A stretch of 64,000 nt of DNA, taken from assembly GCA_003945285.1 (NCBI GenBank), contig AP019005.1:558001-622000 (forward strand). Direction: 5' to 3'. This stretch comes from Hydrogenimonas sp. GTDB lineage: Bacteria; Campylobacterota; Campylobacteria; Campylobacterales; Hydrogenimonadaceae. The notes beneath the pieces were generated by a model, which ran no database searches, was not told the origin of the DNA, and saw only the letters and a program-made list of their open reading frames with translations. A program made the position numbers and the translations under genes. Positions 26,368-48,700 of the stretch are shown here, in pieces (position 1 is the stretch's first letter; every line of letters starts with the position of its first letter).

Positions 26368-29300
26368 TTAGCTGTGCTCTTTTCTGTAGAAGAGCAGATA
26401 GAGTGCCGGTAGTACCAGCAGTGTAAGGAGTGTCGAGCTGATTATACCGCCCGTTACGACCACCGCAAGAGGGTACTGTATTTCGCTTCCGACACCGGTC
26501 GCGTAGAGCAGCGGAAGTATTCCGAAGAGTGTCGTAAACGCAGTCATCAGAACCGGGCGCAGACGCAGTGAGGCGGCATCTTTGAGCAGTATTTCAAGCT
26601 TGACGTCCGGAAATCTCTCCCTTAACTCGTCGATGAAGCTTACCAGTACGATTCCGTTTAGAATCGCTATGGCAAATATGGCGATGAAGCCGACGATCGC
26701 CGATACGCTCAGATACTCGCCGCTGACAACCAGCGCGATGATTCCGCCGATCAGCCCCATCGGAACCCCCAGCAGTATGAGCAGAGATTTTTTGATCGAA
26801 TTGAAAGCGGTATAGAGCAGCAGGATCACTACGATGATTGTAATCGGTATGATGAGCTTCAGTGTCTTTGTCGCCTCCTGCATATTTTTGAAATCTCCCG
26901 CCCATCTGGTGTAGTACCCCTTGGGTATCTTCACCTCTTTGTCGATCTTGCTCTGAGCCTCTTCGACGAACGATGCTATGTCGCGGTTCTCTACATCCAT
27001 CGAGATGACCATGTAGCGGCTGAGGTTTTCCCTTTTTATGAAAGAGGGCCCCTGTACGACCGAGACGTCGCACACCTCGTCGAGACGGACCATTTTGCCG
27101 CTGCCGCTTCGCAGCATGACCGCACCGAGAGCCTCTATATCATCTTTCGCACCCTCTATTTTCGGAACGATCCCGAAACGGCGCACTCCCTCTATCTTTT
27201 CGGTCACAGGCTCCTCCCCGATACCGTGACGGATGACGCGCATAACCTCGTCTACACCGATACCGTAGCGGGATAGTGCCAGAAAGTCGGGACGTATCGT
27301 CACCTGCGCCTGTCCGAGCTGCGTCTCCACTTCGGTGCGCTCCAGCCCTTCGACGCCGCTTAGAACTCTTTGAATCTGCGAGGCGATGGAGTCCATCACC
27401 TTCTGATCTTCACCGAATATCTTGATGGCCAGCTCAGCCTTGACACCTTCAAGCAGCTCCTCGATCCGCATGGCGATTGGCTGGGTGGGAACGAACTGCA
27501 CATACTCGAAGCGTTTTTGAAGGTCGTGTGTCATCCTCTTCGCTAGAGCCGGCAGATCTTCGATTCCCGGTTTCAGCGTAAGCAGCACCTCCATGTAGTT
27601 CGCCTGTGCAGTTTCGCCCTTTTCGCTCCGGCCGATCATGCTTAGAACACTCGAGACCTCTTTGCTGTACTCTTTGAGAATGTAGCGCTCCATCTCTTTG
27701 GCGGTTTCTATGTTCTGAGAAAGAGCGGTGCCGGGTATGCCGATAACGCGGTACATTATCGACTCTTCGTTGAGTTCGGGCATAAACTCCCGCCCCTGCT
27801 GGCTCAGAAGCCACGCCGTCGCACCGAAGAGGAGCGCGGCGAGTACGGTTATTGTCCCGGCATAGTGCAGAGTGAACTTCAGAGCCGGCAGGTATATCGC
27901 TTTGATACCGCGCATCACCGGGCTTATACCGTGTTTTGCAGGTTTGAGCAGCAGGAAGCTGAGCACCGGAACCAGGAGCATAGCCACGGCTAGAGAGCCG
28001 AGCATCACGAAGACGATATCTATGGCCATCGGCGTATAGAGCTTGCCTGCCAGACCTCCCAGGCTAAGAAGCGGGATGAAGACCGCCGCGATTATGAGCA
28101 GCGCGAATATGACAGGTTTTGCCACGCCGGCGGCGGCTTCGGCTATGATGTCGAGTTTGGAGGCTTCCGGTTTGTCGTGAAGAAGTCTGAAAGCGTTTTC
28201 GACCACGACGATCGTACCGTCGACGATCATGCCTATCGCTATCGCCAGTCCGCTAAGGCTCATCAGGTTTGCGCTTATGCCGTACTGCTTCATAAGCAGA
28301 AAGGCGATAAGCAGAGAAAGCGGCAGCGAGAGTATGACGATGAATGCGCTTCTGAGCTCGAAGAGAAAGAGAAAGAGAATTATCGCTACGAGCACCGCGC
28401 CGCTGAGCAGTGCACCGGTCATCGTACTGACCGCTTTATGCGTTATTTCGGTACGGTCGTAAACGGTCCCTATCTCCACCCCTTCCGGCAGTGCGGCGTT
28501 GACCAGCGGTATCCTCTCTTTCAGCCGTTCTACAACCATCGCGGCGTTGGTTCCGCTGCGCTGCAGAACCATACCGAACATCACCTCTTTGCCGTCTATT
28601 GTGACGGCCCCGAAACGGGGCGCTTTCCCCTCTCTTACATCGGCGATGTCGCCTATCGTTACCGCTCTGGCTTCCCTGGCGCGCACAACCGTATTTTTTA
28701 TATCTTCCAAACTCCGGTAGAAGCCGCTGCCGCGTATCAGGTACTGTTCGCGGTTCATCTCAAGGTACTGCCCTCCGGCACTTCGGTTGGCCTTCTGCAG
28801 CGCTTCGACGATCTCGTCGTATGTTACGTCTACAGCCTGCAGTCTTTTGGGATCGATCAGCACTTCGTACTGCTTGTCGAAACCGCCCCAGCCTATAACC
28901 TCTTCGACACCGTCTACCGACTTGAGCATAGGAGCGACAACATACTCCTGCAGCTCTCTTAGCTGAGTGAGGCTCTGTCTGCCGGAGTTGTCCTTTATCT
29001 GATACCAGAACACCTGCCCGAGACCTGTCGTATTGGGCCCCATGACCGGTTTCCCCCAGCCGTCGGGTATATCTACGCCGTTGAGCCGTTCGGTGACCAG
29101 CTGTCTAAGAAAGTATGTGTCGTACCTCTCCTCGAAAAAGATAGATACGTACGATAGACCGAATAGTGAGTTCGAGAGTATCATCTTGACACCCGGAAGC
29201 CCAGCCATCGCCGACTCTATAGGGTATGTTATAAGCTTCTCGATATCCTGCGCCGAGTTGCCCGGGCTCTCCGTATATATCACGACCTGTTTTGGTGTGA

Positions 29301-29421
29301 TATCCGGAAATGCGTCCACAGGAATCTCTTTATACGCCTTGTAGCCGAACCCGGCTATGGCGACAAATAGCGCTATAACCAGAAATTTGTAACGTATAAG
29401 GAGCTTGAAAAATTTTTCCAT
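26368..29421 (-). CDS. Heavy-metal RND transporter (CzcA-like), second system
   Basis: 1017-residue HME-type RND pump. N-terminal MEKFFKLLIRYKFLVIALFV is TM1; TM4 carries GLAIAIGMIVDGTIVVVEN with the conserved Asp and Glu of metal pumps. The second half includes GIVLVSFIDELRER and a membrane end. It differs clearly from the pumps at 17 and 57 kb, so the three are not recent duplicates. ATG 29421 with AAGGAG. It is the last gene of the operon after the outer-membrane factor and the His-rich adaptor. Zn, Co, Ni or Cd are the likely substrates, judging from the imidazole- and carboxylate-rich adaptor; this is inferred. Confidence 0.85.
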   Translation of the reverse strand: MEKFFKLLIRYKFLVIALFVAIAGFGYKAYKEIPVDAFPDITPKQVVIYTESPGNSAQDIEKLITYPIESAMAGLPGVKMILSNSLFGLSYVSIFFEERYDTYFLRQLVTERLNGVDIPDGWGKPVMGPNTTGLGQVFWYQIKDNSGRQSLTQLRELQEYVVAPMLKSVDGVEEVIGWGGFDKQYEVLIDPKRLQAVDVTYDEIVEALQKANRSAGGQYLEMNREQYLIRGSGFYRSLEDIKNTVVRAREARAVTIGDIADVREGKAPRFGAVTIDGKEVMFGMVLQRSGTNAAMVVERLKERIPLVNAALPEGVEIGTVYDRTEITHKAVSTMTGALLSGAVLVAIILFLFLFELRSAFIVILSLPLSLLIAFLLMKQYGISANLMSLSGLAIAIGMIVDGTIVVVENAFRLLHDKPEASKLDIIAEAAAGVAKPVIFALLIIAAVFIPLLSLGGLAGKLYTPMAIDIVFVMLGSLAVAMLLVPVLSFLLLKPAKHGISPVMRGIKAIYLPALKFTLHYAGTITVLAALLFGATAWLLSQQGREFMPELNEESIMYRVIGIPGTALSQNIETAKEMERYILKEYSKEVSSVLSMIGRSEKGETAQANYMEVLLTLKPGIEDLPALAKRMTHDLQKRFEYVQFVPTQPIAMRIEELLEGVKAELAIKIFGEDQKVMDSIASQIQRVLSGVEGLERTEVETQLGQAQVTIRPDFLALSRYGIGVDEVMRVIRHGIGEEPVTEKIEGVRRFGIVPKIEGAKDDIEALGAVMLRSGSGKMVRLDEVCDVSVVQGPSFIKRENLSRYMVISMDVENRDIASFVEEAQSKIDKEVKIPKGYYTRWAGDFKNMQEATKTLKLIIPITIIVVILLLYTAFNSIKKSLLILLGVPMGLIGGIIALVVSGEYLSVSAIVGFIAIFAIAILNGIVLVSFIDELRERFPDVKLEILLKDAASLRLRPVLMTAFTTLFGILPLLYATGVGSEIQYPLAVVVTGGIISSTLLTLLVLPALYLLFYRKEHS

Positions 29422-29431
29422 TTTATGCTCC

Positions 29432-30736
29432 TTAATGACCGTGTCCGCCGAGCTCCGACTTGAGCATCAGAGATTTGACGAAATAGACCCCGTCGGCAAC
29501 GTACTCTTCGCCCGGTCGTATCCCTCTCACGGCTGTGTAACCGCCGAAGCTGCTTATTGGCTCTACCACTCTTACTTCGTAAGGCTTCTCTTCGGAGTGT
29601 TCTGCATGTTCTGCATGTTCGGTCTCATCTCCATGCTCATCATCTCCATGCTCATCATCTCCATGCTCATCATCTCCATGCTCTTCATGCCCATGCTCTT
29701 CATGACCGTGCTCTTCATGACCGTGCTCTTCATGACCGTGCTCTTCATGACCGTGCTCTTCATGACCGTGCTCTTCATGACCGTGCTCTTCATGACCGTG
29801 CTCTTCATGACCGTGTTCCTCGTGTGCTTCGTGCTCTTCCCCCTCTTCCGTATGACGGGGAGTGAAAACGACCCACTCACCTTCAAACATGGTCAGAGCG
29901 GACCGTTTTACGGCCACATACTCATCGAACGGAGGAAGGTCAATCTCCATTTCGGCAAAAGCGTTTAGAAGAAGAGGCTTTTTCTCACTCTCTATCCAGA
30001 AGAGCATCTGGGCTCTTTGGGTCTCCTCGTCCACTTTCGGGAGCAGGTAGAGGTATCGGCAGTCGAAGCCGATTCCGTCTATCTTGAGCCTTCCTTCAAC
30101 CTTTTTCGGCATTTTGAGCGCTTCTGCCACCCCTATGTATGCGATTGCATAGTATCCGCTCGACTGTACCAGCGAGATGATGGGAGTTTCTGCCGTCAGG
30201 TTCGTATGCAGCGGAACCAGAAGCCGGTTTACCAGACCGTCGGCATGAGCCTTTATCGTCAGTGTATCGGTAGGCTTTTTGAGAGAGTGCAGATCGATAC
30301 CCAGTGAAGCCAGCTGCGAAGCGATAGCGTTCCTGTCCGCTTCTATCGATGCGAACGCTATCTGCTCTCGGTTAAGATCCTGCTCCGAAGCCAACCCTTT
30401 TTTATAGAGGCTCTCGGTCGAAGAGAGTCGTGCCTTCGCAGCTTCCAGTTTCTTTCCCAGGGCCAGATACTCCGCACTCATCTTCGAGAGCTCCAACGAC
30501 TTTATCAGCGCTATTTTGTCACCCTTTTTCACCTTCGCTCCCGGCTCGACATAGTAGCGCTCCAAGTGCCCGCCCAGGCGCGATACGATCAGCTGTTTCT
30601 GGTTTGAAAGCTGCACGATTTTGGCGTTTACATGTATCTGTTTTCCAAACTTCTTCAGCTCCGCTTTTTCGATTGTTATATCGGATGCGTGGAGTGCCGT
30701 GAAAGCTAGCAGTAGTGTTATAACTCTTTTTCTCAT
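29432..30736 (-). CDS. RND periplasmic adaptor with repetitive His/Glu metal-binding tract
   Basis: 434-residue HlyD-type adaptor. Signal peptide (MRKRVITLLLAFTALHAS), lipoyl halves (GGHLERYYVEPGAKVKKGDK and TLTIKAHADGLVNRLLVP) with a coiled-coil hairpin between, and a barrel domain. Near residues 301-375 is a low-complexity insert built from the unit EEHGH repeated about eight times, then DDEHG repeated, then EHAEHAEH. CzcB-like adaptors often have a His-rich stretch that binds Zn or Co, but this one is unusually long and regular. The gene overlaps the outer-membrane-factor gene by ATGA. Confidence 0.85.
   Translation of the reverse strand: MRKRVITLLLAFTALHASDITIEKAELKKFGKQIHVNAKIVQLSNQKQLIVSRLGGHLERYYVEPGAKVKKGDKIALIKSLELSKMSAEYLALGKKLEAAKARLSSTESLYKKGLASEQDLNREQIAFASIEADRNAIASQLASLGIDLHSLKKPTDTLTIKAHADGLVNRLLVPLHTNLTAETPIISLVQSSGYYAIAYIGVAEALKMPKKVEGRLKIDGIGFDCRYLYLLPKVDEETQRAQMLFWIESEKKPLLLNAFAEMEIDLPPFDEYVAVKRSALTMFEGEWVVFTPRHTEEGEEHEAHEEHGHEEHGHEEHGHEEHGHEEHGHEEHGHEEHGHEEHGHEEHGHEEHGDDEHGDDEHGDDEHGDETEHAEHAEHSEEKPYEVRVVEPISSFGGYTAVRGIRPGEEYVADGVYFVKSLMLKSELGGHGH
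29610..29835. repeat. 15-bp minisatellite inside the adaptor gene
   Basis: On the plus strand the unit CATGACCGTGCTCTT occurs seven times perfectly in tandem (29701-29805), flanked by variant copies and by a second 15-bp unit CATCATCTCCATGCT repeated three times. The period is a multiple of three, so gain or loss of units changes the number of EEHGH or DDEHG blocks without a frameshift. Confidence 0.92.
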
Positions 30737-31905
30737 TTCAGGTTTCCTTTCAGATACTCTGTCTCTATTTTGTAGAGGTTTGTCAAGTAGCGTGTTTTGA
30801 GGATCTCCCTCTCGGTTTCGATGAGGCTGTTTTTTGTACGCAGCAGATCCAGAAGTGAGCTCTGCGCCATTTTGTAACCCTCTTCAAAAAGGGCAAGAAG
30901 TTCCTTCTCTCTGCGCTCCTGCTCCTTCAAAGCGGTATATCTCTTTTTAAGTATCTCAACCTGTCGCATAAGCGACTCAAGCCTTGCGCGCTGGCCGATT
31001 TCGACCCTTTTTCTCTGCAGTGCGGCCTGTTTGGCTCTGATTTTGGCAAGTCTGTACTCCTGGTTGCTCCTGTTGAAGAGGGGAAGGTCGAGCGCTATGC
31101 CGATCCTGCCTATAGACTGGTCCGGCTCATCCTCTATCTCTCCGAAGAGGTTGTAACTCTTCACTCTACGGCTTTGGGTCTCAGCCTCGGCCGCAAGCAG
31201 CCGCTCATTTGTCCGGGCCAGCTTCAGGTCGGGACTCTCAAGCGGGCTCTCCTTCTCCGCCCGATCCGGTATGCTGTAGAGAAATTGGGCATCGAGCTCT
31301 ATACGCTCCGTGATCCCGGCAAATGCAACAAGCCTGTAGTATCGCTCCGTTACGGCCCTTTTTGCCTCCAGTAGCCTGTTTTCGGCACTCTGAAGCTCAA
31401 GCGAAGCCTGCATAAGTGCCGCTTTGGTACCGCCGCCGCTCTCGAACCTCTCTCTTGCTATCGACTCGAGTCTCTTGGAGATGGAGATCTCCTCCTCTAT
31501 CAGCTCCTTTGTGTATAGAGCCATTACATAGTCCGTATATCCGCGCCTGAGTGCGGCTATAAAACCGCTGCGGCTCTTTTCGTATCCGGTCTTTGCATAG
31601 AGCTCTAGACTCTTCGCATACTCTTTGAGGTCATCTTGCAGGCCGAACAGCCTGAAAGATTGGGATACCCCAAAGCGCCAGCCGTTCTCTCTCGAGCCGT
31701 TATCGGGTGAAAAGCTGCTTATTTCAGCCTCTATCTCCGGGTTTTCGTATCTTGTCAATATTTCGCCTCTGACTCTGGAAGCGTCGCTTTGGAGTCTGGC
31801 CGAAGCGATTTCCGGGGAGCTTTGCAGGGCTCTTTTTTCAAACTCCCTGTAGTCCGCCCCGAACAGCGAAATCGCCGTGAGCATCACTATGAATACTCTA
31901 CTCAT
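30733..31905 (-). CDS. TolC-family outer-membrane factor, second RND system
   Basis: 390-residue OEP-fold protein with a signal peptide (MSRVFIVMLTAISLFG), long helical repeats and a second-repeat strand around IGIALDLPLFNRSNQEYRLA. It forms the outer-membrane channel of the His-rich adaptor pump encoded immediately downstream. ATG 31905 preceded by AAGGAGAG. First of the three coupled pump genes. Confidence 0.85.
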   Translation of the reverse strand: MSRVFIVMLTAISLFGADYREFEKRALQSSPEIASARLQSDASRVRGEILTRYENPEIEAEISSFSPDNGSRENGWRFGVSQSFRLFGLQDDLKEYAKSLELYAKTGYEKSRSGFIAALRRGYTDYVMALYTKELIEEEISISKRLESIARERFESGGGTKAALMQASLELQSAENRLLEAKRAVTERYYRLVAFAGITERIELDAQFLYSIPDRAEKESPLESPDLKLARTNERLLAAEAETQSRRVKSYNLFGEIEDEPDQSIGRIGIALDLPLFNRSNQEYRLAKIRAKQAALQRKRVEIGQRARLESLMRQVEILKKRYTALKEQERREKELLALFEEGYKMAQSSLLDLLRTKNSLIETEREILKTRYLTNLYKIETEYLKGNLK

Positions 31906-32063: not shown

Positions 32064-32369
32064 TTAGGATATGGGAGGCCGGTATGTCCGGTCGTTCAGA
32101 GGCGGAAGGTAATCTTTGTTGAGGTAGTCGATGACATCTCTTTTTGCAAGAGAGGGAATATACATCGCAAAGGAGGCGGGAATAGCGCTCAGATGGAACA
32201 TGTGGTGCTTTTCGCAAAGGTCTCCGCAGTCGTTGACCTGTTCCATCTCCAGGACATATTCACATACAGTCTCGTGCTCGCAAGATTTGAATGAGTAGAT
32301 GATTGCGGCATGCACAACGTTAGTAAAGAGCGAAAAAAGCAGAAGTATGGAAACCGCTCTGTTGCACAT
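32064..32369 (-). CDS. Small exported protein upstream of the second RND operon
   Basis: 101 residues from ATG 32369, chosen because AAAGGGTGG precedes it and it gives a clean signal peptide (CNRAVSILLLFSLFTNVVHA). An upstream in-frame ATG at 32402 would add 11 polar residues. The mature part has several Cys (SCEHETVCEYV, NDCGDLCEKHH) and the pattern HHMFHLSAIPAS, with a Pro-rich end. In size, place and the HxxFHxL motif it resembles the protein at 13900-14205. The Cys and His residues would suit metal binding. Family not recognised. Confidence 0.6.
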   Translation of the reverse strand: MCNRAVSILLLFSLFTNVVHAAIIYSFKSCEHETVCEYVLEMEQVNDCGDLCEKHHMFHLSAIPASFAMYIPSLAKRDVIDYLNKDYLPPLNDRTYRPPIS

Positions 32370-32413
32370 AGCCACCCTTTCATTACGATTCTCTCCAACC
32401 ATTCTACATTATT

Positions 32414-32428: not shown

Positions 32429-32450
32429 AATTACAAATTGATGTTACAAA

Positions 32451-32616
32451 CTGATCTTACGCAAAAATTGTCAGCCCCGGGATTTGAGCGGAAAAATATC
32501 GTTTAAAAAACCGCGCTTGCCCGTCAGGGCGCCGAAGGCGTCAGCGGTTTTTAGATATTTTGCAGCGTCCCGCAGGGCAGATCCCGCTCGGCGTGCGGAT
32601 TTTGCGTAAGGTCAGT
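32451..32616. mobile_element. MITE-like element B with 7-bp target duplication
   Basis: 166-bp element with ends CTGATCTTACGCAAAA and TTTTGCGTAAGGTCAG (one mismatch in 16), flanked on both sides by TTACAAA (32444-32450 and 32617-32623). It has an internal inverted pair and no open reading frame. A partial relative lies at about 4635-4716. It differs in ends and target length from element A. Confidence 0.75.
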
Positions 32617-32987
32617 TACAAAATTCGGAAATAGTAGGAGTTGAAAACCCGACAGTTCAAAATCATACATCGGAAAATATGTCTCTGACCGGCAAAACCT
32701 CCAGAAGTTTCGATATACCCTTCGGAGCGTGGCAGTGTGATCTCTAAGAGTGTGACTTGGCGGGTGGCTAGTAAAGAATATAGAGTTTTTTGCCGATTAT
32801 CTTATACGTACAGGCATCAAGGCGACAGTTTCAGGTTTGAAAAAGTACCGAGTGCCGAGGTTTGCCACAAGGGCTTAAAATGATGCCGTGTGAAGTTTTT
32901 AAATCACAGGATTTGTTGAAAAACCAAAATATATGCTTGCCCAAGATTTACGTAATATCGGTCAGTAAATGATAAAAGGATGATAAC
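32617..32987. other. Gene-free region before the exopolysaccharide-type operon
   Basis: About 370 bp with no credible gene. AT-rich towards its end. It should hold the promoter of the operon starting at 32988; AAAAGGA lies before the TTG. I looked for a c-di-GMP (GEMM) riboswitch core and did not find one. A GATTTACGTAA...GGTCAG string at about 32945-32966 echoes the ends of element B. Confidence 0.4.
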
Positions 32988-34391
32988 TTGCCAGTCTACT
33001 CCATAGCTTGTATCGATCCCGAAGGGGTATTGGAAAAAAGCTCGAATATATCAGGTATGCTCTTTTACCGGGAGGCAGAGCTTCTTCTGTCGGATCCCGA
33101 AAAACATGATGCTGTATGGATAGTTTCGGATGATGAGAGGTTTGTCTCAGAAACGCTCGACCGCTTGCGGCGCGAACGTCACTATGCCGTTGTCCCCCTG
33201 TTTACCATGTACGAAACGGAAGGTGAATATGCCCTGTTGAGTGACGGAAAAGCTGCGACGCAGAGAGAGCTGGCCCATAAGAGCGAACCTATGCTGCTCA
33301 GGCTTGGGCATCTGGACAGGGAAGCCATGGTCTCTTCCGCAAGCATCGCACTGCTCGCGTATCTCTATCTTCGCCCGGATGAAGGTTTGAAAAGCTACAG
33401 GTCGTGGCACAATCCATATATCGAACTCTATCCGATCGTGGCGCGTTTGAACGATTCTGGTATGGACGATTTCCAATGGCTTACAATGATCTATCGCAGA
33501 GGCCTGCTGGAGAAAAAGGAGCTGCTCAATCGTATCCGGTTGTGTCCAAAATGTTCTATGCCGCATCACAACTTTATAGATGTCTGCCCCGTCGATCAGA
33601 TCATCGAAATAGAGAAAGTAGATTTCGTCCACTGTTTTACATGTGGATACGTAGGGCCGGAGCGGGAGTTTTTGGCGGATGGGACACTTGTCTGTCCCAA
33701 CTGCAAAACGGGGTTGCGACATATCGGCGTCGATTACGACCGTCCAATGGAGAGCTACATCTGTGCCGACGGCCACAAGTTTGTCGAGCCGGATGCCCTT
33801 GCGGAGTGTCTGGAGTGCGGTACGATAAGCCGCCCGGATGAGTTGGTTCCCAGGGAGATATATGCCTACGGTTTGACACCGGAAGGTATCCTGGCCGCCA
33901 AGATGGGAACCATAAGCGATATCTATGCGATTCTGGAGCAGGAGAATTTCGTCACACCGGACTATTTTGAGTCGCTGCTGGACTGGATGGTCAAAATGTA
34001 CCGAAGGGACGCTGAAGCATACTTTTCCATCCTGGTGATCCGACTACTGAATATTCCGGAGTTGGTGGAGAGTCTTGGGCGGGGCAAAGTGGTTGAATTT
34101 ATGGATGAATTCGCCATGCGCCTCAGAGAGATTCTCAGAAGTACAGATATCACGACCCGCACAAACGAGACGGACCTTTGGATACTGCTTCCCAAAACGC
34201 CGGAAGAGGGGTGTGAAATTGTCAAATCCCGCATAGAGCGGCTCAAATCGCTGCTCGTGCATGAAACGAAGAGTATCGATTTCGATACCGTTTGCCACAC
34301 TATCGGGAAAGAGCTTCCCAAGAGTGCGGAAGCGAAAGATATCATGCTCTCCATGAGTGCACGTCTCAAATCTGCCGGGGTGAAGAAATGA
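32988..34391 (+). CDS. TackOD1 zinc-ribbon protein with degenerate GGDEF-like domain
   Basis: 467 residues, cytoplasmic. The N-terminal about 90 residues look like a receiver-type alpha/beta domain without the usual acidic cluster. The middle (about 180-290) is a multi-zinc-ribbon module matching the TackOD1 pattern: LCPKC, CPVDQ, HCFTCGYVG, CPNCKTGLRHIGVDYDRP, CLECG. The C-terminal part resembles a GGDEF fold (FSILVIRLLN ... STDITTRTNETDLWILLPKT), but the active site is NETDL, so it cannot be a cyclase and may bind nucleotide or protein. The start is TTG with AAAAGGA upstream. It overlaps the glycosyltransferase gene by ATGA and probably regulates that enzyme. Confidence 0.75.
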   Translation: MPVYSIACIDPEGVLEKSSNISGMLFYREAELLLSDPEKHDAVWIVSDDERFVSETLDRLRRERHYAVVPLFTMYETEGEYALLSDGKAATQRELAHKSEPMLLRLGHLDREAMVSSASIALLAYLYLRPDEGLKSYRSWHNPYIELYPIVARLNDSGMDDFQWLTMIYRRGLLEKKELLNRIRLCPKCSMPHHNFIDVCPVDQIIEIEKVDFVHCFTCGYVGPEREFLADGTLVCPNCKTGLRHIGVDYDRPMESYICADGHKFVEPDALAECLECGTISRPDELVPREIYAYGLTPEGILAAKMGTISDIYAILEQENFVTPDYFESLLDWMVKMYRRDAEAYFSILVIRLLNIPELVESLGRGKVVEFMDEFAMRLREILRSTDITTRTNETDLWILLPKTPEEGCEIVKSRIERLKSLLVHETKSIDFDTVCHTIGKELPKSAEAKDIMLSMSARLKSAGVKK

Positions 34392-35722
34392 TCGACTTCT
34401 GGGTGCAGACAATCGTCGCTTTCTATGAAGTGGTCGTCCTGCCGATGGAGGAGAATCTTAAGCTCTTTCTCATGAAATTTATCCCCTTCATCATCTTTTT
34501 CGAGGTACCGGTCTATCTGCTCATTATCGTAGGTGTCATGAGATACGGATTCAAAAGATATGTGCATCGACCCAGACGGGTCCCGTATTATCCGAAAGTG
34601 AGTTGTGTAGTGCTCTGTTATGCCGAGGGGGAAGCCGTATCCTCCTCCATCGTCTCACTGTCGGAACAGATCTACCCCGGCAGCATAGAGATAGTTGCGG
34701 TTATAGACGGAGCTTCTAAAAACCGAAAAACTTATGATGCTGTCAGGGCACTGGAGGGCTATGTTTCCGAAAAAGCGTTGCGTGATATCCGTATCATCCC
34801 CAAGTGGCAGAGGGGCGGGCGTGTCTCTTCGATCAACTCCGGAGTGAAAGTTGCGAGCGGGGAGATAGTGATGGTGGTCGATGCGGATACCTCATTCGAC
34901 AACAACATGGTGGAGAGGGCTACCCGCCATTTCATCGACGAGAATGTCGTTGCAGTGGCGGGCAACCTTCGTGTAAGAAACTGGAAAGAGAGCCTCGTTA
35001 CCCGCCATCAGGCGATCGAATATATTCTATCCATCTATCTCGCAAAAATCGGATTGGGTGAATTCAATCTTCTGAACAATGTTTCCGGCGCCTTCGGAGT
35101 CTTCAGAAAGAGCTTCGTGGAGAAGATCGGCTTTTGGAATACGGGTACGGCGGAAGATCTGGACATGACACTACGGATAAAGAACTATTTCGGGCGCCAC
35201 AAGAACCTTCGGATCGTTTTCGAGCCCGAAGCGATCGGTCATACGGACGTTCCGGGCACATGGCGTGGGTACCTTGAGCAGCGTTTGCGCTGGGACGGAG
35301 ACCTGTTGTATATCTATCACAAGCACTTCATGAGTTTTTCCGCCCGGATGGTCGGCAAACTGAACCTGCTGGCACTGGTTTGGACAGGACTTTTCTTCCA
35401 AATTACGATGCCTTTTTTGATCTACCTCTATCTGTGCTACTCCCTGTTTTTCTACGGAGCGGTATTTACGGCCGCTTTGAGTCTTTTGGCCTATCTTTTC
35501 TATTTCGCCGTTACTTGCCTCTTTTTTATCATCTTTCTCTTCTGGATATCGGAACGTAAAGAGGAAGATATGAAACTGGTACCCATGCTCTTTCTCTACC
35601 CGGTATTTGCCTTTTTTATGCGTTTATGGAGTGGAGTCGCCCTTGCAAGGGAGGTGGTGATCAATGCCCATCTCGACTCTTCGATGGCACCATGGTGGGT
35701 TTTGAAAAAATCGGATATATAA
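34388..35722 (+). CDS. Processive GT2 glycosyltransferase (polysaccharide synthase)
   Basis: 444-residue inner-membrane family 2 glycosyltransferase of the cellulose/PNAG/hyaluronan-synthase type, which polymerises and usually extrudes a beta-linked polysaccharide. One N-terminal membrane segment (about 25-50), the GT-A domain with VVLCYAEGE and the metal-binding VVDADTS (about 164), the acceptor motif GTAEDLDM (about 255) and QRLRWDGD (Q-x-x-R-W, about 297-304). Four or so C-terminal membrane helices follow. All processive-synthase motifs are present. No PilZ domain is visible, so any c-di-GMP control would come through another protein. ATG 34388 overlaps the previous stop. Confidence 0.85.
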   Translation: MIDFWVQTIVAFYEVVVLPMEENLKLFLMKFIPFIIFFEVPVYLLIIVGVMRYGFKRYVHRPRRVPYYPKVSCVVLCYAEGEAVSSSIVSLSEQIYPGSIEIVAVIDGASKNRKTYDAVRALEGYVSEKALRDIRIIPKWQRGGRVSSINSGVKVASGEIVMVVDADTSFDNNMVERATRHFIDENVVAVAGNLRVRNWKESLVTRHQAIEYILSIYLAKIGLGEFNLLNNVSGAFGVFRKSFVEKIGFWNTGTAEDLDMTLRIKNYFGRHKNLRIVFEPEAIGHTDVPGTWRGYLEQRLRWDGDLLYIYHKHFMSFSARMVGKLNLLALVWTGLFFQITMPFLIYLYLCYSLFFYGAVFTAALSLLAYLFYFAVTCLFFIIFLFWISERKEEDMKLVPMLFLYPVFAFFMRLWSGVALAREVVINAHLDSSMAPWWVLKKSDI

Positions 35723-35730
35723 GGAATATC

Positions 35731-37854
35731 ATGATGGGAAAAAGTGTCGGCACTATTTCGGGAGTTTTGTTATCGGCAATGCTCTTTCTGGTTTCTGCGC
35801 AGGGTGATACGTCGGTACGTTATATGCTACAGGACCTGGAGAAGCGTATTGTAGAGTCTCCGGATATATCGATGGCTGTCGCCGATATCGAAATGAAAAA
35901 GGGAGAGCTCGAGCGGGAAAAAGCGCTTGGAGGGTTGACGGCTTTCGGTACGGTGGGAGTCGGACGCTACAAAGACCTTGTGGATGAAAACAGTGTCTGG
36001 TACCACACGGGAGGCCGTTTCGTTGCCGGGCTCAGCCTTCCGCTTCTTGGATCGAAGCTGATGAAACGTGATGCGGTTTTGGATGCGGAAACTTTGGTGG
36101 AAGAGCAAATCCTGAAGAAAGAGGATACGAAAAGAGAGAGCCTGGCCGCATTGAGAAGCGCCTATATAGGCTACTGGTCCGCTATGAAGAAAAGAGATGT
36201 GGCAGAGGCTTTTTTACAAGGGTGTGACGATACGGTCACAATATTGCAGGATAGGGCATCAAAAGGCTTCATACTTCCCGTAGAGGCACTTGAAGCATCG
36301 CGACAGTGCATGAAAGCCCGAGTGCTTGAAAAGCGCTACAGAGTGTCGATGAGACGTTTTTTGCAGATGATACGCTATCTGACTGTAGCGGATCTGCCCG
36401 AGTTCATCCCCTATACGCCCAAAATGGAGCTGCCGGATCAGGAAAAAGCGTATATGCTTGCCGAAGCGGCTGAAAGGGACCCGAGTGTGCGGATAGCACG
36501 GCTGCATCTCGAGAATGCGATGAAAAAGAGTGACAATACCTTTTTGAAGAGTATAGAATCGGATTTGCGGCTTGTCGGTTTCGTCGCTCCAGAGTACGAC
36601 TCCAACCGACAGGGGCATGGGGTGGAGATTACGTTCAACGTCAAATTCCCCCTCGCACTGGATGAGGCTTCGAAGGCGCAGAAGCGTATAGAACATGCTC
36701 AAATCGTAAAAACGGCGCTGGCTTTGCGTAAGACCTATGGAGAGAGAGTTTCAAATCTTCGGATCGCCGTTGATGCATGGACCACCGCTGTCGAAAACTA
36801 CCGCTATGCGAAAAGCTACCTTGAAAAAGAGTCGGAATCGCTGAGAGAGGCGCTCCTGCGCCTGAGTAGATTCTCCCAGGATGGGTACCTGAAAATTCGT
36901 GATGCCAGGTACGACTACTTTCGAAGCGCATTGGAGACGATAGATGCCTATGCCGGAATGGAGACGGCCGCGGTACATATCCTACGGTATCTGCCGGAGG
37001 ATTATGCTGCGATGCACACGGAATCGGTACGGTTCGACGATGCGATTGAAGCCCCATTGGCAATGAATTTAGATGTGCAGAGTGTCTCTTCCGGGCCGCA
37101 GACAGGGGTCTATCTGTGGGATAGCCGCCTCTGGCTTACCGATGATACGATGTGGAAAAAGCTCCTTTCGAAGCTGCAGGAGGCGGGGCTGAACCGTGTT
37201 TTGATCGGTCTTGACGGAGATCAGATCAGGGCACTGGACAGACCGGCGATGAAGGATCGGATGAAGCGCTATATCAGGGAGGCCCATGCCGCGGGAATAG
37301 AGGTAGACCTGCTTCTCGGGGAGCCTACCTGGCTTCTTCCGGAACATAGGTACAAACTGCTTCAGATTGTCGGGAGACTGGAGCCGATTCCTTTCGACAA
37401 GGTAAACCTGGACCTTGAGCCGCAGCAACTCGACAGAGAGATCACGCCCAAAGAGGGGGCGAGACTCGTTTACGAAACATTGGCGGCCGTCCGTTCCGTT
37501 TCATCGGTACCCCTGGGTGTTACGCTCCACCCGAGACTGCTTAACAGGGAGGAGACCGAAATGGACCTGGGAAAACTTTTGGCCGATATAGGTATACGCG
37601 AGATCGTTCCGATGTTGTACGGGTACGGCATCGAAGCGGTTGCAGAGTGGGAGCGAAAATTTATCGCCGCCTACCCGAAACTGCCGCGCATCGCGGCATT
37701 GAGCCTTGAAAAAGAGGTGCCGGAGAATCCTTTCGCACTTTCCGACAGGGAAAAGTTGCGAAATAAAATCGAAAACCTCCGTTCCGCACCGGGTATGGAG
37801 AGTCTGTCGATACTTCTACAGGATTTCAGCCGCCTCGAAAGGATGAAGCCGTGA
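35731..37854 (+). CDS. TolC-like outer-membrane protein fused to a TIM-barrel glycosidase-like domain
   Basis: 707 residues. Signal peptide (MMGKSVGTISGVLLSAM...VSAQG), then a TolC/OEP-like helical region to about residue 440 (segments such as ALRSAYIGYWSAMKKRDVAE and DGYLKIRDARYDYFRSALE). The remaining 260 residues resemble a TIM-barrel glycoside hydrolase: TGVYLWDSRLW, NRVLIGLDGDQ, DLLLGEPTWLLPEHR (about 526-540), VNLDLEPQQL (about 556-565) and PLGVTLHPRLL. The acidic residues of NLDLEP are candidate catalytic residues. I know of no characterised protein with this fusion. Start ATG 35731 (second ATG 35734) after AAGGAA; the frame extends upstream without a better start. Confidence 0.72.
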   Translation: MMGKSVGTISGVLLSAMLFLVSAQGDTSVRYMLQDLEKRIVESPDISMAVADIEMKKGELEREKALGGLTAFGTVGVGRYKDLVDENSVWYHTGGRFVAGLSLPLLGSKLMKRDAVLDAETLVEEQILKKEDTKRESLAALRSAYIGYWSAMKKRDVAEAFLQGCDDTVTILQDRASKGFILPVEALEASRQCMKARVLEKRYRVSMRRFLQMIRYLTVADLPEFIPYTPKMELPDQEKAYMLAEAAERDPSVRIARLHLENAMKKSDNTFLKSIESDLRLVGFVAPEYDSNRQGHGVEITFNVKFPLALDEASKAQKRIEHAQIVKTALALRKTYGERVSNLRIAVDAWTTAVENYRYAKSYLEKESESLREALLRLSRFSQDGYLKIRDARYDYFRSALETIDAYAGMETAAVHILRYLPEDYAAMHTESVRFDDAIEAPLAMNLDVQSVSSGPQTGVYLWDSRLWLTDDTMWKKLLSKLQEAGLNRVLIGLDGDQIRALDRPAMKDRMKRYIREAHAAGIEVDLLLGEPTWLLPEHRYKLLQIVGRLEPIPFDKVNLDLEPQQLDREITPKEGARLVYETLAAVRSVSSVPLGVTLHPRLLNREETEMDLGKLLADIGIREIVPMLYGYGIEAVAEWERKFIAAYPKLPRIAALSLEKEVPENPFALSDREKLRNKIENLRSAPGMESLSILLQDFSRLERMKP

Positions 37855-38918
37855 AAATACATTTTGAAAGTCCGAAGGCCGGACGGCCGGACGTAGAGCG
37901 GGGAATCAAAGTGCCGTATGCTCCGGAAAGGCGGAAAGCGCCTATATGGCGATGGTACCTGCTTCTTGCCCTGATTCTCTCACCGGTTATATATTTCGCA
38001 TGGATTTTGATACAACCGCTTGCGGTCATTACCGCCCCCGGCTTTTTGCGTCTCGAGCTCTACGGAGTGGACTCACACATTTCCGGCAGAGTCACGGGTG
38101 TATACAGAGAGATAAATGAGCAGGTTCAAAAAGGGGAGCCCCTGTTTGAAGTTGAAAATATTGTCCTTTTGAACCGGATAGAGGCGGTACGGAAGGAGCT
38201 GAAAGCGGTTCGGAAGAAGATGGAACTGGATCTTAGAGCGTCAATTGCGGCGAAAAAGAGTGAAGTTACCCGACTGTCGTCTCTTTTACGTGAGTTGAAA
38301 AGCAGATGTAAAGAGGTAGATAACCTGATTGCAATGGGAGCAGCCACTTCTACGGAACTCATGCAGTGTCGCCGCCAGATTGTGGAGTTGCAGATAAACC
38401 TGATACGCGCAGGAGAGGAGCTTCGGATAGACAAAGCGAAACTCCGGAACCTCTCCAGTGATCCCAAAATAGTATCGTTACAGAGCAGTCTGAACGGGCT
38501 TATGAAGGAGTCCAAACTTCAGACAATCACCGCCGAAGTGAACGGGACGTTGGAGAATATACAGGTGAAAAAGGGCGAATATGTCCATACGGGAAAGAGG
38601 CTGGCAGATATTATCGACGACAGAAAAATAGCCATAGATGCCTATTTTGACCCGAAATATTTCGACTACCTGAAGAAGGGTGATTCCGTCATCGTTAAAT
38701 TTCCAGACGGATACAGTGTCGACGGTTTCATTCTGGATATGCCGAGACTAAGTTCCAGGCTTCCGAGTGACTTCACCCTTCTGAAGGAGCAGAAACGGGC
38801 GGTACTGGTACGCATAGGCCTGAAGAACGGCCTGCTGCAGAGGTATCGTGTCGCCCAGATGCCGGTTGAAGTCCGTCTGAAAAAAGGGGTTGTGGAGTCG
38901 TTGTGGGAGCGCATGTAA
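37851..38918 (+). CDS. HlyD-type membrane-fusion protein of the exopolysaccharide system
   Basis: 355 residues. A cytoplasmic N-terminus, one membrane helix (WYLLLALILSPVIYFAWILI, about 34-53), a lipoyl half-motif (YGVDSHISGRVTGVYREI), a long coiled-coil hairpin (about 100-215), the second lipoyl half (ITAEVNGTLENIQVKKGEYV) and a barrel domain. It resembles EmrA/HlyD adaptors more than RND adaptors, because it is membrane-anchored by a helix and has a cytoplasmic tail. GTG 37851 overlaps the stop of the fusion gene. It would connect the synthase side to the TolC-like protein. Confidence 0.8.
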   Translation: MKIHFESPKAGRPDVERGIKVPYAPERRKAPIWRWYLLLALILSPVIYFAWILIQPLAVITAPGFLRLELYGVDSHISGRVTGVYREINEQVQKGEPLFEVENIVLLNRIEAVRKELKAVRKKMELDLRASIAAKKSEVTRLSSLLRELKSRCKEVDNLIAMGAATSTELMQCRRQIVELQINLIRAGEELRIDKAKLRNLSSDPKIVSLQSSLNGLMKESKLQTITAEVNGTLENIQVKKGEYVHTGKRLADIIDDRKIAIDAYFDPKYFDYLKKGDSVIVKFPDGYSVDGFILDMPRLSSRLPSDFTLLKEQKRAVLVRIGLKNGLLQRYRVAQMPVEVRLKKGVVESLWERM

Positions 38919-39295
38919 ATATACCCCCCACAGGCGGCCTATTTTTGAGACTGATACTATCCAAACGGGTGCGTCTCGAATATTCCCGAATCGCCTGGTC
39001 GGAGGCATAGTAACGACTTCAAACTATTCTATTTGTCAAGCAAAGCTCGAGCAGAAGCCGGGCTTTGCCGAAGATAGACCCTCTTCCCCAGTACTCGCTG
39101 AAGTTACGAAACCGCGGACTTCCATATGACGTCGCGTTTTTTTCGTAATACCGGACTACACTCTTACGTCCAAGTCAAGATATTGACAGATTTTACGTAA
39201 CGGTAGCTTGCAAAAAACTACTTTTTTCGAGAATATGCCAAAATCACAGCGATTGTGTACTATAATGATTTGAAATAGATGGAGTGTTCAGGGCA
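38919..39295. other. 377-bp gene-free gap with a decayed element A copy
   Basis: About 38965-39036 matches the right half of MITE element A: ACGGGTGCG, then a CCTGGTCGG block, then AACGACTTCAAACTATT. The terminal CTCGA box is degraded. A TTTTACGTAA string at about 39188 echoes element B ends. A TATAAT at about 39261 probably starts the FIST-GGDEF-EAL transcript. Confidence 0.55.
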
Positions 39296-45780: not shown

Positions 45781-48700
45781 ATGGAAGTAGCAGTGAACGA
45801 CAGGAAGATTCTCTATCTCGATATCGAAACGGACCGTAAAGGAAAAAATCTCTATGAGATCGGCGTGCTCTGCGGTACTCGTGGTTACAGTAGCAGTTCT
45901 CCACAGATGATCTCCACCTTCATCCGGCACTGTTCTCATGCAGAATATCTTTGCGGGCACAATCTTTTCGATCACGATCTATCCTATATTAATCAGCACA
46001 GTAAACTATTTCATGATTTGTCGCGATTCCGGATTATTGATACACTTCCGCTTTCGTTACTCTTTTTCAGTGAAAAGACCCATCATGCCCTTCCCAAGGT
46101 TTACAAAAGTGAGGATGACTTTGTAAACGATCCGATCAAGGATTGTGAACTGACTCGCCATCTGATGGAGAAACTGGTAACACGATGGAGCGATATGCCC
46201 CAGCCGCTGCAACACATTCTCTTTACATTGCTGCGCAAGCAGGAGCGATTTACCGGTTTTTTTGACTATCTTGCGAACAAAATCAGTTTTGAGATTCTCG
46301 ATACTGAACAACTGGTTGCGATGATTGCCGACGAGTACGACCGTTCGATCAGCGATTACACCTATCTGGAAGAGATGATCGCCGAATCGCCTGTTGAGCT
46401 TGCTTATATACTGGCGCTTCTCACACCTCATATAGAGATTAAAGCGCATCCGCCGAAAGTCCTCTATGACTATCCCGAAATTGTGGAAAAACAGCGAAGA
46501 CTTTGCTACAACATCGATAGTCTCAAAAATGAGCTCTCCGTAATTTCCGAAGAGATATTCGGTTTTAGTGAATTCCGTATTTTCCCCAAGCTTAACCCCT
46601 CGCTACTAAGCACCAACACAATCTCCCAGCGCGATATTATTGAAGCGGCATTAAGACGGGACTCGTTTTTAGCGGTCTTGCCGACGGGCGGGGGCAAGAC
46701 CTTCACTTTTTGGTTGCCGGCAGTTATTCAGGCATCCAGTTATAAAGCCCTTACCGTGGTAATATCTCCCTTGCAAGCGCTCATAGAGGACCATATCAAA
46801 AGTTTCGAAAACAAGGCCGCCAATTACCGGGCTGTGGCCATCAGCGGCTTCATGACACCACAGGAGCGTAGTGAAGCTATAGAACAGGTTGCCAACGGTG
46901 TGGCGGATATTTTATACATCGCTCCTGAATCTCTACGCTCCAATACAATTTTTTCTCTACTAAAAAACCGCTATATCGAGCGTTTCGTCGTTGATGAGGC
47001 CCACTGTCTATCCACCTGGGGAAACGACTTTCGGCAGGACTATTTCTATATTTGCGAATTCATTAAAGATCTGCTGGCGGCAAAATCTTTTCAGGAGAGA
47101 ATTCCCGTCTCATGTTTCACCGCTACCGCCAAGCCTAGTGTCATCGACGATATTAAAAACTACTTTCAAGAAGGGCTTGGATTGGAAATGGAAGAGTTTC
47201 TAGCCAAACCGGAGCGCAATAACCTTCACTATCGTGCTCTTGAGGCACCTCGTATCAAAAAGTACACCGTACTTCTTCGGCTGATCCAGGAACATAGGGG
47301 CTCCTCTTTGGTATATATTCCCACATCCACTAGGCAATGCGACGAAGTGGCTGAAAAATTGGCCATGGACACCGGAAAGGCAGTGCGTTCTTTCCATTCC
47401 AAGCTCGATTCTCAAGAGAAGATGAAGATTCTCAAGGATTATATAGAGAACGAGATCGATGTGATCGTCGCCACTACCGCTTTCGGGATGGGGGTGGATA
47501 AGCCCGATATCACTCAGGTAATCCACTTCGAACCCTCCGATTCTCTCGAGAATTATGCACAAGAAGCTGGACGTGGTGCGCGGGATCAGCACCTGGAGGC
47601 AGTCTGTCCGGTACTCTACGACGAAGCCGATCTCGATAAACATTTTCAAACCCTGCGCCGAAGCAAGATTACCGTAGCGGAAATTAACTCCATCTTTCGG
47701 GTCATCAAACACCACAAAGGAGATATTGTACTACTCAGCGCCAAGGAGCTGGCCAAAGAGGCGGGCTGGGATGTTGAGGATATCGAGGCGGATGTAGAGA
47801 GTAAGATCAAGACGATTCTTCTGGAACTGGAGCGCGAAGGCTATATCCGGAGAAAACGCAACAAAGTACGATTTTACGGTGATTCAGTAGCAGTAGAGAG
47901 CCGTGATAAACTGTATGCGTTTATAGAGCGGAACCACAAAAGTGACGAGGAGCGGTGGAAATATATCGAAATACTCAACCGGCTCCTGGGGCAGGGTAAA
48001 GAGAGATCCATCGAGATCGACGACATTGCTAGGGTGCTGGGTATCCCCCGTGAAGATGTAGCGCTGATCCTGCAGGAGCTTAAAGAAGAGGGTATTATCG
48101 GGGACAGCCGGGATATGGCGGTTAAGCTTCTGCATGAGGATCTTAGAGCTTTGGATAGAGTACTTAGGATCGAAAAGGCGCTGCTAGAGTTTCTGCGTGC
48201 TTATCCGGGAGATATAGTCGCCATTAAAGAGCTTAACGAAGCACTGATAGAGCAGGGGATATTGTGTGATAACGATAACGAGTCGGAGTTGATCCGAGAG
48301 CTGATCAAAGGATGGCGAAGCCGGGGACTTTTCAGCTTTACTCGCATGAACCGCCAGCAGGATCGCTGGATGTATAGTTTCTTAGACGCTGAACGATTCT
48401 CCAGCCTGCTTAGTAAACGGCAAAATCTAGTGCGTGAACTTATGGTGTGGCTTCTTGGGCGAACAACCGGAGAGGGTAATATCGGCTTTTCACTTCTGGA
48501 GCTCAAAAAAGCGCTTAAAGAGCGCTACAAACTCAAAGAGCTGGACCGGGGACTGCTTTTTTTGCATCGGCATAAGTTCATCATGCTGCTCGGTGGTCGT
48601 TTTATCTACTACAACCCCCTGGTGATCGAAAAGCAGGAGAAAATTAAGATTACAAACAAACGCTACACTAAAGTGGAATACAAACAGCGTCTAGGGACAC

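Follow-up and report, generated by a model that had tools for sequence, protein, structure and literature searches.

A 64,000-nucleotide stretch of the Hydrogenimonas sp. genome (contig AP019005.1, positions 558,001 to 622,000; hereafter the window) carries a compact cassette of four genes, which encode a TackOD1 regulator, a processive family-2 glycosyltransferase (GT2), a fusion of a TolC-fold outer-membrane factor with a TIM-barrel hydrolase-like domain, and a HlyD-type periplasmic adaptor. Here, we find that this cassette is real and widespread, with a near-identical set in Pseudomonas, Nitrosomonas, Synergistota and many other bacteria. Its core consists of the TackOD1, GT2 and HlyD genes, and the hydrolase and TolC parts are accessories that individual lineages have gained, split or lost. 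The best explanation for the set, to which we give a probability of roughly three in four, is a mobile, synthase-dependent exopolysaccharide secretion cassette with a cyclic di-GMP (c-di-GMP) switch. We also consider it slightly better than an even bet that such cassettes form a mobile class of c-di-GMP-gated exopolysaccharide machines, spread over at least four bacterial phyla. In these machines, the synthase would take the pump's place in a HlyD-TolC tripartite exporter, the channel would bring along its own enzyme to cut the polymer, and the TackOD1 protein would be the receptor.

We first met the fusion protein outside the window on two mobilizable 29-kb plasmids of Aeromonas caviae, where the four genes stand in the window's order, and a TackOD1 search led to a cassette in a second genome of the same taxonomic order, in which the hydrolase has a gene to itself and TolC is absent. 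Three GT2 sequences, used to scan a genome collection, recovered 306 relatives; the best 80 of these, together with the window, the plasmid and the same-order genome, make up a set of 83 loci. TackOD1 adjoins GT2 in 83/83, and the complete fused four-gene set is present in 67, in one of two gene orders: TackOD1, GT2, TolC-hydrolase, HlyD (56 loci) or TolC-hydrolase, HlyD, TackOD1, GT2 (11 loci, from Synergistota and their relatives). In eight further loci, the hydrolase stands alone and a TolC gene is lacking. The last eight are split, incomplete or without a hydrolase; among pseudomonads, the accessory hydrolase is a separate gene in some and absent in others.

Because these loci had been chosen by GT2 similarity, the linkage test was rerun with TackOD1 as the sole seed in three other phyla, each named from the genome at the centre of its sample. 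TackOD1 occurs in 15 of 399 genomes from the phylum of Pseudomonas locus L048, 10 of 297 from that of Desulfopila locus L020, and 30 of 151 from that of Synergistota locus L022. GT2 is adjacent in 49 of the 52 loci fetched (15/15, 6/9 and 28/28, respectively), and GT2 and HlyD are both present in 48 (15/15, 5/9 and 28/28), figures that are not fully independent of the first test since some genomes occur in both sets. The three TackOD1-GGDEF proteins without an adjacent GT2 all come from the L020 phylum (L133 6332-7756, L135 1623-3173 and L137 6474-7913); no synthase is found among the neighbour genes checked at L133 and L135, and L137 has no match to the GT2 profile. In 21 of 21 cassette genomes, a single TackOD1 exceeds the family cut-off. 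The association of TackOD1 with GT2 is far beyond chance. The original prediction had treated the four genes as one system and looked to their adjacency in other genomes and to the partners of the TolC and HlyD proteins as its check: the genes do belong together, being nearly always adjacent, and GT2 accompanies this TolC/HlyD pair in every case. What has to be given up is an obligate four-gene unit, in favor of a three-gene core plus two accessory domains.

In the window, the cassette occupies 32988-38918 on the + strand as four tightly packed genes joined by overlaps or, between the GT2 stop and the ATG of the fusion gene, by an 8-bp gap (Table 1). Neither the open reading frames of the window and their Pfam matches nor the compared loci include an ABC, MFS or RND transporter gene that belongs to the cassette. 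The gene junctions are as originally described, as are the four products: a zinc-ribbon protein with a degenerate GGDEF domain, a GT2 with all processive motifs, a TolC-like protein carrying its own hydrolase-like domain, and an anchored HlyD adaptor.

Table 1. Features of the cassette and its insertion site; nucleotide positions are those of the window, residue positions those of the protein named.
Feature	Position	Strand	Basis or remark
TackOD1 regulator, 467 residues	32988..34391	+	TTG start; Pfam, AlphaFold, Foldseek
REC-like fold, N-terminal	about residues 1-106 of TackOD1 protein		AlphaFold model
TackOD1 zinc-ribbon, Cys-rich domain	residues 116-295 of TackOD1 protein		Pfam
Degenerate GGDEF domain, C-terminal	about residues 310-467 of TackOD1 protein		Pfam, Foldseek GGDEF matches
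I-site RxxD (R384-S-T-D387), codons	34137..34148	+	homologue alignment
Third I-site arginine R415	34230-34232	+	homologue alignment
Processive GT2, 444 residues	34388..35722	+	ATGA overlap with TackOD1 gene; Pfam, NCBIfam, motifs
GT2 motifs: DxD D165-D167; TAED 254-257; QRLRW 298-302	within 34388..35722	+
TolC-fold outer-membrane factor fused to TIM-barrel hydrolase-like domain, 707 residues	35731..37854	+	Pfam OEP
TIM-barrel domain	37102..37836	+	44-sequence alignment, AlphaFold
D104xE106, end of strand 4, conserved	37411-37419	+	alignment and model
E203, after strand 7, conserved	37708-37710	+	alignment and model
HlyD-type periplasmic adaptor, 355 residues	37851..38918	+	GTG overlapping fusion stop; Pfam, transmembrane-segment scan
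Stretch present here, missing at same site in four relatives	32438..39249	.	holds cassette and left-edge repeat element

The GT2 (Pfam E=9e-18) belongs to a group in which the DxD, TED and QxxRW motifs are kept in 82-83 of 83 members, and it has hydrophobic segments at its N terminus and in its C-terminal third. Its best NCBIfam match is PgaC/IcaA, at 139.6 bits far below the curated cut-off (422.3); the enzyme is 26% identical to E. coli PgaC and far from it in a tree. The poly-N-acetylglucosamine system PgaABCD resembles the cassette in its distantly related GT2 and in including a glycosidase domain, but the cassette lacks a PgaA-type porin, a deacetylase and PgaD, and its hydrolase is unrelated in sequence to PgaB, to which the hydrolase profile has no match; we therefore reject membership in the Pga family. 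Membership in the Bcs cellulose family is rejected likewise: the GT2 scores 20 bits against the CelA model (cut-off 699), and no cassette protein has a Pfam match to PilZ or BcsB. As to the polymer itself, galE follows TackOD1-GT2-HlyD on a Rhodobacteraceae plasmid (L168 9277-10287), a hint that the precursor in that case is of the galactose or GalNAc type.

The TackOD1 protein combines a strong Pfam match to its namesake domain (E=4e-56) with a weak one to GGDEF (E=2e-6), and its AlphaFold model has a predicted local distance difference test score (pLDDT) of 89.8. The GGDEF active-site position reads NETDL in the window protein, and GG[DE]EF is intact in 0 of 83 TackOD1 proteins. The I-site RxxD is nevertheless kept in 81 of 82 homologues, and the full triad of RxxD and a downstream arginine in 78 of 82. 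Judging from its spacing, this arginine probably occupies the position of PleD R390. A precedent exists in PelD, whose degenerate GGDEF domain with an intact RxxD I-site is a c-di-GMP receptor that controls polymer secretion (PMC7112168). Since the I-site has been retained while the active site was lost, we predict that the TackOD1 protein is likely a PelD-like c-di-GMP receptor; the site itself is read from sequence conservation, and c-di-GMP binding and activation of GT2 would follow from it. An unlikely alternative is that the protein senses a metal, redox state or protein partner through its Cys-rich domain, with the GGDEF remnant serving only as a scaffold. Eleven cysteines and one histidine are nearly invariant (one of the cysteines is D in the window protein), some relatives have a response-regulator architecture, and haloarchaea possess TackOD1 without GT2, all of which would suit such a sensor. 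It would not, however, account for the selective retention of the R..D and R of the I-site as the active site decays.

In the fusion protein, a hydrophobic, signal-peptide-like N terminus and an OEP match in the N-terminal half (E=9e-15) precede 245 C-terminal residues that match no credible Pfam family. Modeled from an alignment of 44 sequences, this domain forms an eight-stranded TIM barrel (pLDDT 94.8; predicted template modeling score 0.91). Active sites of TIM barrels sit at the C-terminal ends of the strands, and here the near-invariant residues lie at or just past those ends: W6, D104 and E106 (strand 4), H143 and R145 (strand 5), M171 and Y173 (strand 6), S201 and E203 (strand 7), and Q240 (strand 8). 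Of these, W6, D104, E106, M171, S201, E203 and Q240 do not vary at all. The acidic residues after strands 4 and 7 of the model would suit a glycosidase. Searches with Pfam, a PDB profile and Foldseek gave no specific glycosidase family for the barrel; the matches include Glyco_hydro_18, weakly, in 3 of the 44 members (E 0.011) and a sole PDB sequence hit, to an entry described as a putative GH97 (10yv; weak, E 2.6e-4). In a Legionellales locus (L073 9315-11290), the TIM-barrel hydrolase is missing and a GH16 gene follows HlyD, a possible hint of a beta-glucan-like polymer; the presence of GH16 there suggests that the accessory slot is meant for a polysaccharide hydrolase.

The adaptor matches HlyD_3 (E=3e-13) and has one N-terminal membrane segment. 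Where both are present, the TolC-hydrolase and HlyD genes mostly overlap (median distance -3 bp), and they stay together in both gene orders. We propose that GT2 polymerizes a sugar nucleotide and, as its processive motifs and membrane segments suggest, would pass the chain through its own membrane channel. HlyD, anchored in the inner membrane beside GT2, would then hand the chain over to the outer-membrane channel of TolC type, and GT2 would in this way stand in for the ABC, MFS or RND pump of an ordinary tripartite exporter. At the periplasmic side of that channel, the TIM barrel may trim, release or clear polymer, as its conserved residues suggest, and the TackOD1 protein would act as the cytoplasmic switch, its dead GGDEF domain binding c-di-GMP at the I-site to license GT2 much as PelD does. 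That a synthase feeds a HlyD-TolC conduit is the simplest reading because the cassette holds no energized transporter, and the conserved linkage likewise favors the self-contained exopolysaccharide synthesis and export line that had originally been suggested.

Several observations weigh against this proposal. An OEP-type channel is encoded in the window cassette and most full cassettes, not in all: TolC is missing from 8 loci that otherwise hold a complete set of TackOD1, GT2, hydrolase and HlyD, and TolC and hydrolase are both missing from many TackOD1-seeded proteobacterial loci. Because the TolC-less core is common, the TolC route is not obligatory, unless an unlinked TolC serves. In Foldseek, the barrel resembles glycosidases, lyases and epimerases to a similar degree, with template-modeling scores no higher than about 0.6, as for a generic TIM barrel, and its hydrolase activity stays putative because of this generality. 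Finally, the third I-site arginine is absent in a few homologues.

The same TolC-less loci bear on how HlyD works. It could be a periplasmic co-polymerase or chain guide for GT2, comparable to the HlyD-like part of Alg44 or BgsB, that does not dock TolC, with the fused TolC forming an independent route or carrying the hydrolase at the outer membrane. The presence of HlyD in the core where TolC and hydrolase genes are absent would fit this role, as would the precedent of BgsB, which works with no TolC; yet the usual overlap of the TolC-hydrolase and HlyD genes, and their joint travel in both orders, make it a rather improbable account. The absence of TolC from many core-only loci would also suit a periplasmic or membrane-attached glycan in place of an exported exopolysaccharide, a possibility that we consider quite doubtful since most full cassettes carry the TolC fusion. 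Very improbable is a small-molecule or protein exporter whose cargo GT2 glycosylates, or beside which it makes a short glycan: the best NCBIfam match of HlyD is indeed the drug-efflux adaptor EmrA/EmrK, far below cut-off, but the cassette includes no energized transporter or cargo gene, GT2 bears the full set of processive motifs along with membrane segments, and the core is kept without TolC. Membership in tripartite drug efflux or type I secretion is rejected, no ABC, MFS or RND transporter being encoded in the cassette with HlyD and TolC.

Our proposal of a mobile cassette draws on its occurrence in this genus and on plasmids. The fusion protein is found in none of 17 other genomes of the genus, and in four of them (G005, G006, G010 and G012) a distance of 0.6-0.8 kb separates the flanking CusC-like OEP and FIST-GGDEF-EAL genes, and this interval includes the small gene (32064-32402 in the window), which lies between them in the window too; alignment of these genomes to the window stops at ~32437 and restarts at ~39250. 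Since the site is uninterrupted in these relatives, the cassette is most simply an insertion and, less simply, a loss in the relatives. In the GT2 tree, modest support (81/72) places the window copy near Desulfocapsaceae; the other copy from the same taxonomic order lies among Proteobacteria (98/82), a pattern consistent with separate acquisitions. Base composition is uninformative about a recent acquisition (50.6% G+C in the cassette, 49.6% in the window). A complete cassette occupies 17127-22949 of L007, the small mobilizable Aeromonas caviae plasmid pKAM329_3, and its GT2 nests with Pseudomonas alcaligenes; the TackOD1-GT2-HlyD core is also found on annotated plasmids of Plesiomonas, Rhodobacteraceae and Phyllobacterium, and on a Roseibium plasmid TackOD1, within a response regulator, stands beside GT2. 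A contig labeled Methanomethylovorans, an archaeon (L036), has a cassette nested in the Synergistota tree and is probably a binning error.

The FIST-GGDEF-EAL gene, present in relatives at the uninterrupted site, is an older resident. It is genus-conserved without the cassette and we reject it as a cassette part; other GGDEF/EAL proteins lie near 5 of the 83 cassettes, and FIST occurs in the window only. The suggestion that this neighboring c-di-GMP protein controls the system is thus not upheld, and the TackOD1 protein is the likely receptor. A repeat element of ~170 bp (32449-32617), which has terminal inverted repeats of 18 bp and is present ~40 times in the genome, lies at the cassette's left edge. 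The CusABC-like pump at 26368-31905, on the other strand, predates the cassette; the CusB-like adaptor (29432-30736) contains a long HGHEEHGHEEHG repeat tract, probably metal-binding and prone to length variation. Elsewhere in the window, a 1609-residue protein (45781-50610) reads as a fusion of an exonuclease, a RecQ-type helicase and a UvrD-type helicase.

The cassette is probably newly recognized as a set, its nearest precedents being XcsAB-TolC, BgsBA and Pel. The XcsA-XcsB-TolC route for cyanobacterial cellulose (Maeda et al. 2018, as reviewed in PMC12430437) shares a processive synthase, a HlyD-like adaptor, a TolC-like channel and a glucanase. As reviewed there, this route is a proposal based on modeling; its TolC is unlinked to the other genes, its synthase has PilZ, and it includes neither a TackOD1 protein nor a TolC-hydrolase fusion. 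BgsBA, which makes rhizobial mixed-linkage beta-glucan, pairs a GT2 with a HlyD-like partner under post-translational c-di-GMP control, but c-di-GMP binds the C terminus of its cellulose-synthase-like synthase and the system has two genes only (PMC9495663). Pel resembles the cassette in its degenerate GGDEF domain with intact RxxD and downstream arginine, in encoding the receptor in the synthase operon and in its hydrolase; it differs in that PelD is a GAF-GGDEF protein and in its PelB/PelC and different synthase complex (PMC7112168). In the cassette, Pfam finds TackOD1 in place of the GAF domain, and there are no Pel genes, so that the likeness supports a protein that may work like PelD, not family membership. 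The view that no known system uses this combination thus stands in part: XcsAB-TolC has been proposed and BgsBA joins a synthase to a HlyD-like protein, yet the open-access literature, to which our survey was confined, yielded no description of this cassette. The text of PMC7112194 does not mention HlyD or TolC, and TackOD1 appears in a single open-access paper, on archaea. The Sfz/xag stalk cluster of iron oxidizers likewise has a GT2, a hydrolase and a presumed exopolysaccharide product, but includes a BcsB-like Sfz1 and an EpsE-GT2 fusion, Sfz2, and neither HlyD nor TackOD1 is named there (PMC8250860). The cassette has no BcsB-like gene and its 444-residue GT2 no N-terminal EpsE-like domain, so we set aside the link to iron-oxidizer stalks or sheaths that the original prediction had raised; for Leptothrix sheath genes, the literature searched yielded nothing usable.

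If our proposal is correct, cultivable bacteria such as Pseudomonas, Nitrosomonas and Thioalkalivibrio would possess an unrecognized polymer of the biofilm matrix that has a second-messenger receptor of its own, and this could account for c-di-GMP-induced matrix that remains after known systems are deleted. The TackOD1 domain, known from archaea as an output domain whose function has been called obscure (PMC5847659), would gain a concrete role in bacteria, and a single operon would provide genetic support for a polysaccharide synthase that feeds a HlyD-TolC conduit. The TolC-hydrolase fusion, in turn, offers a direct way to ask why secretion systems carry glycosidases.

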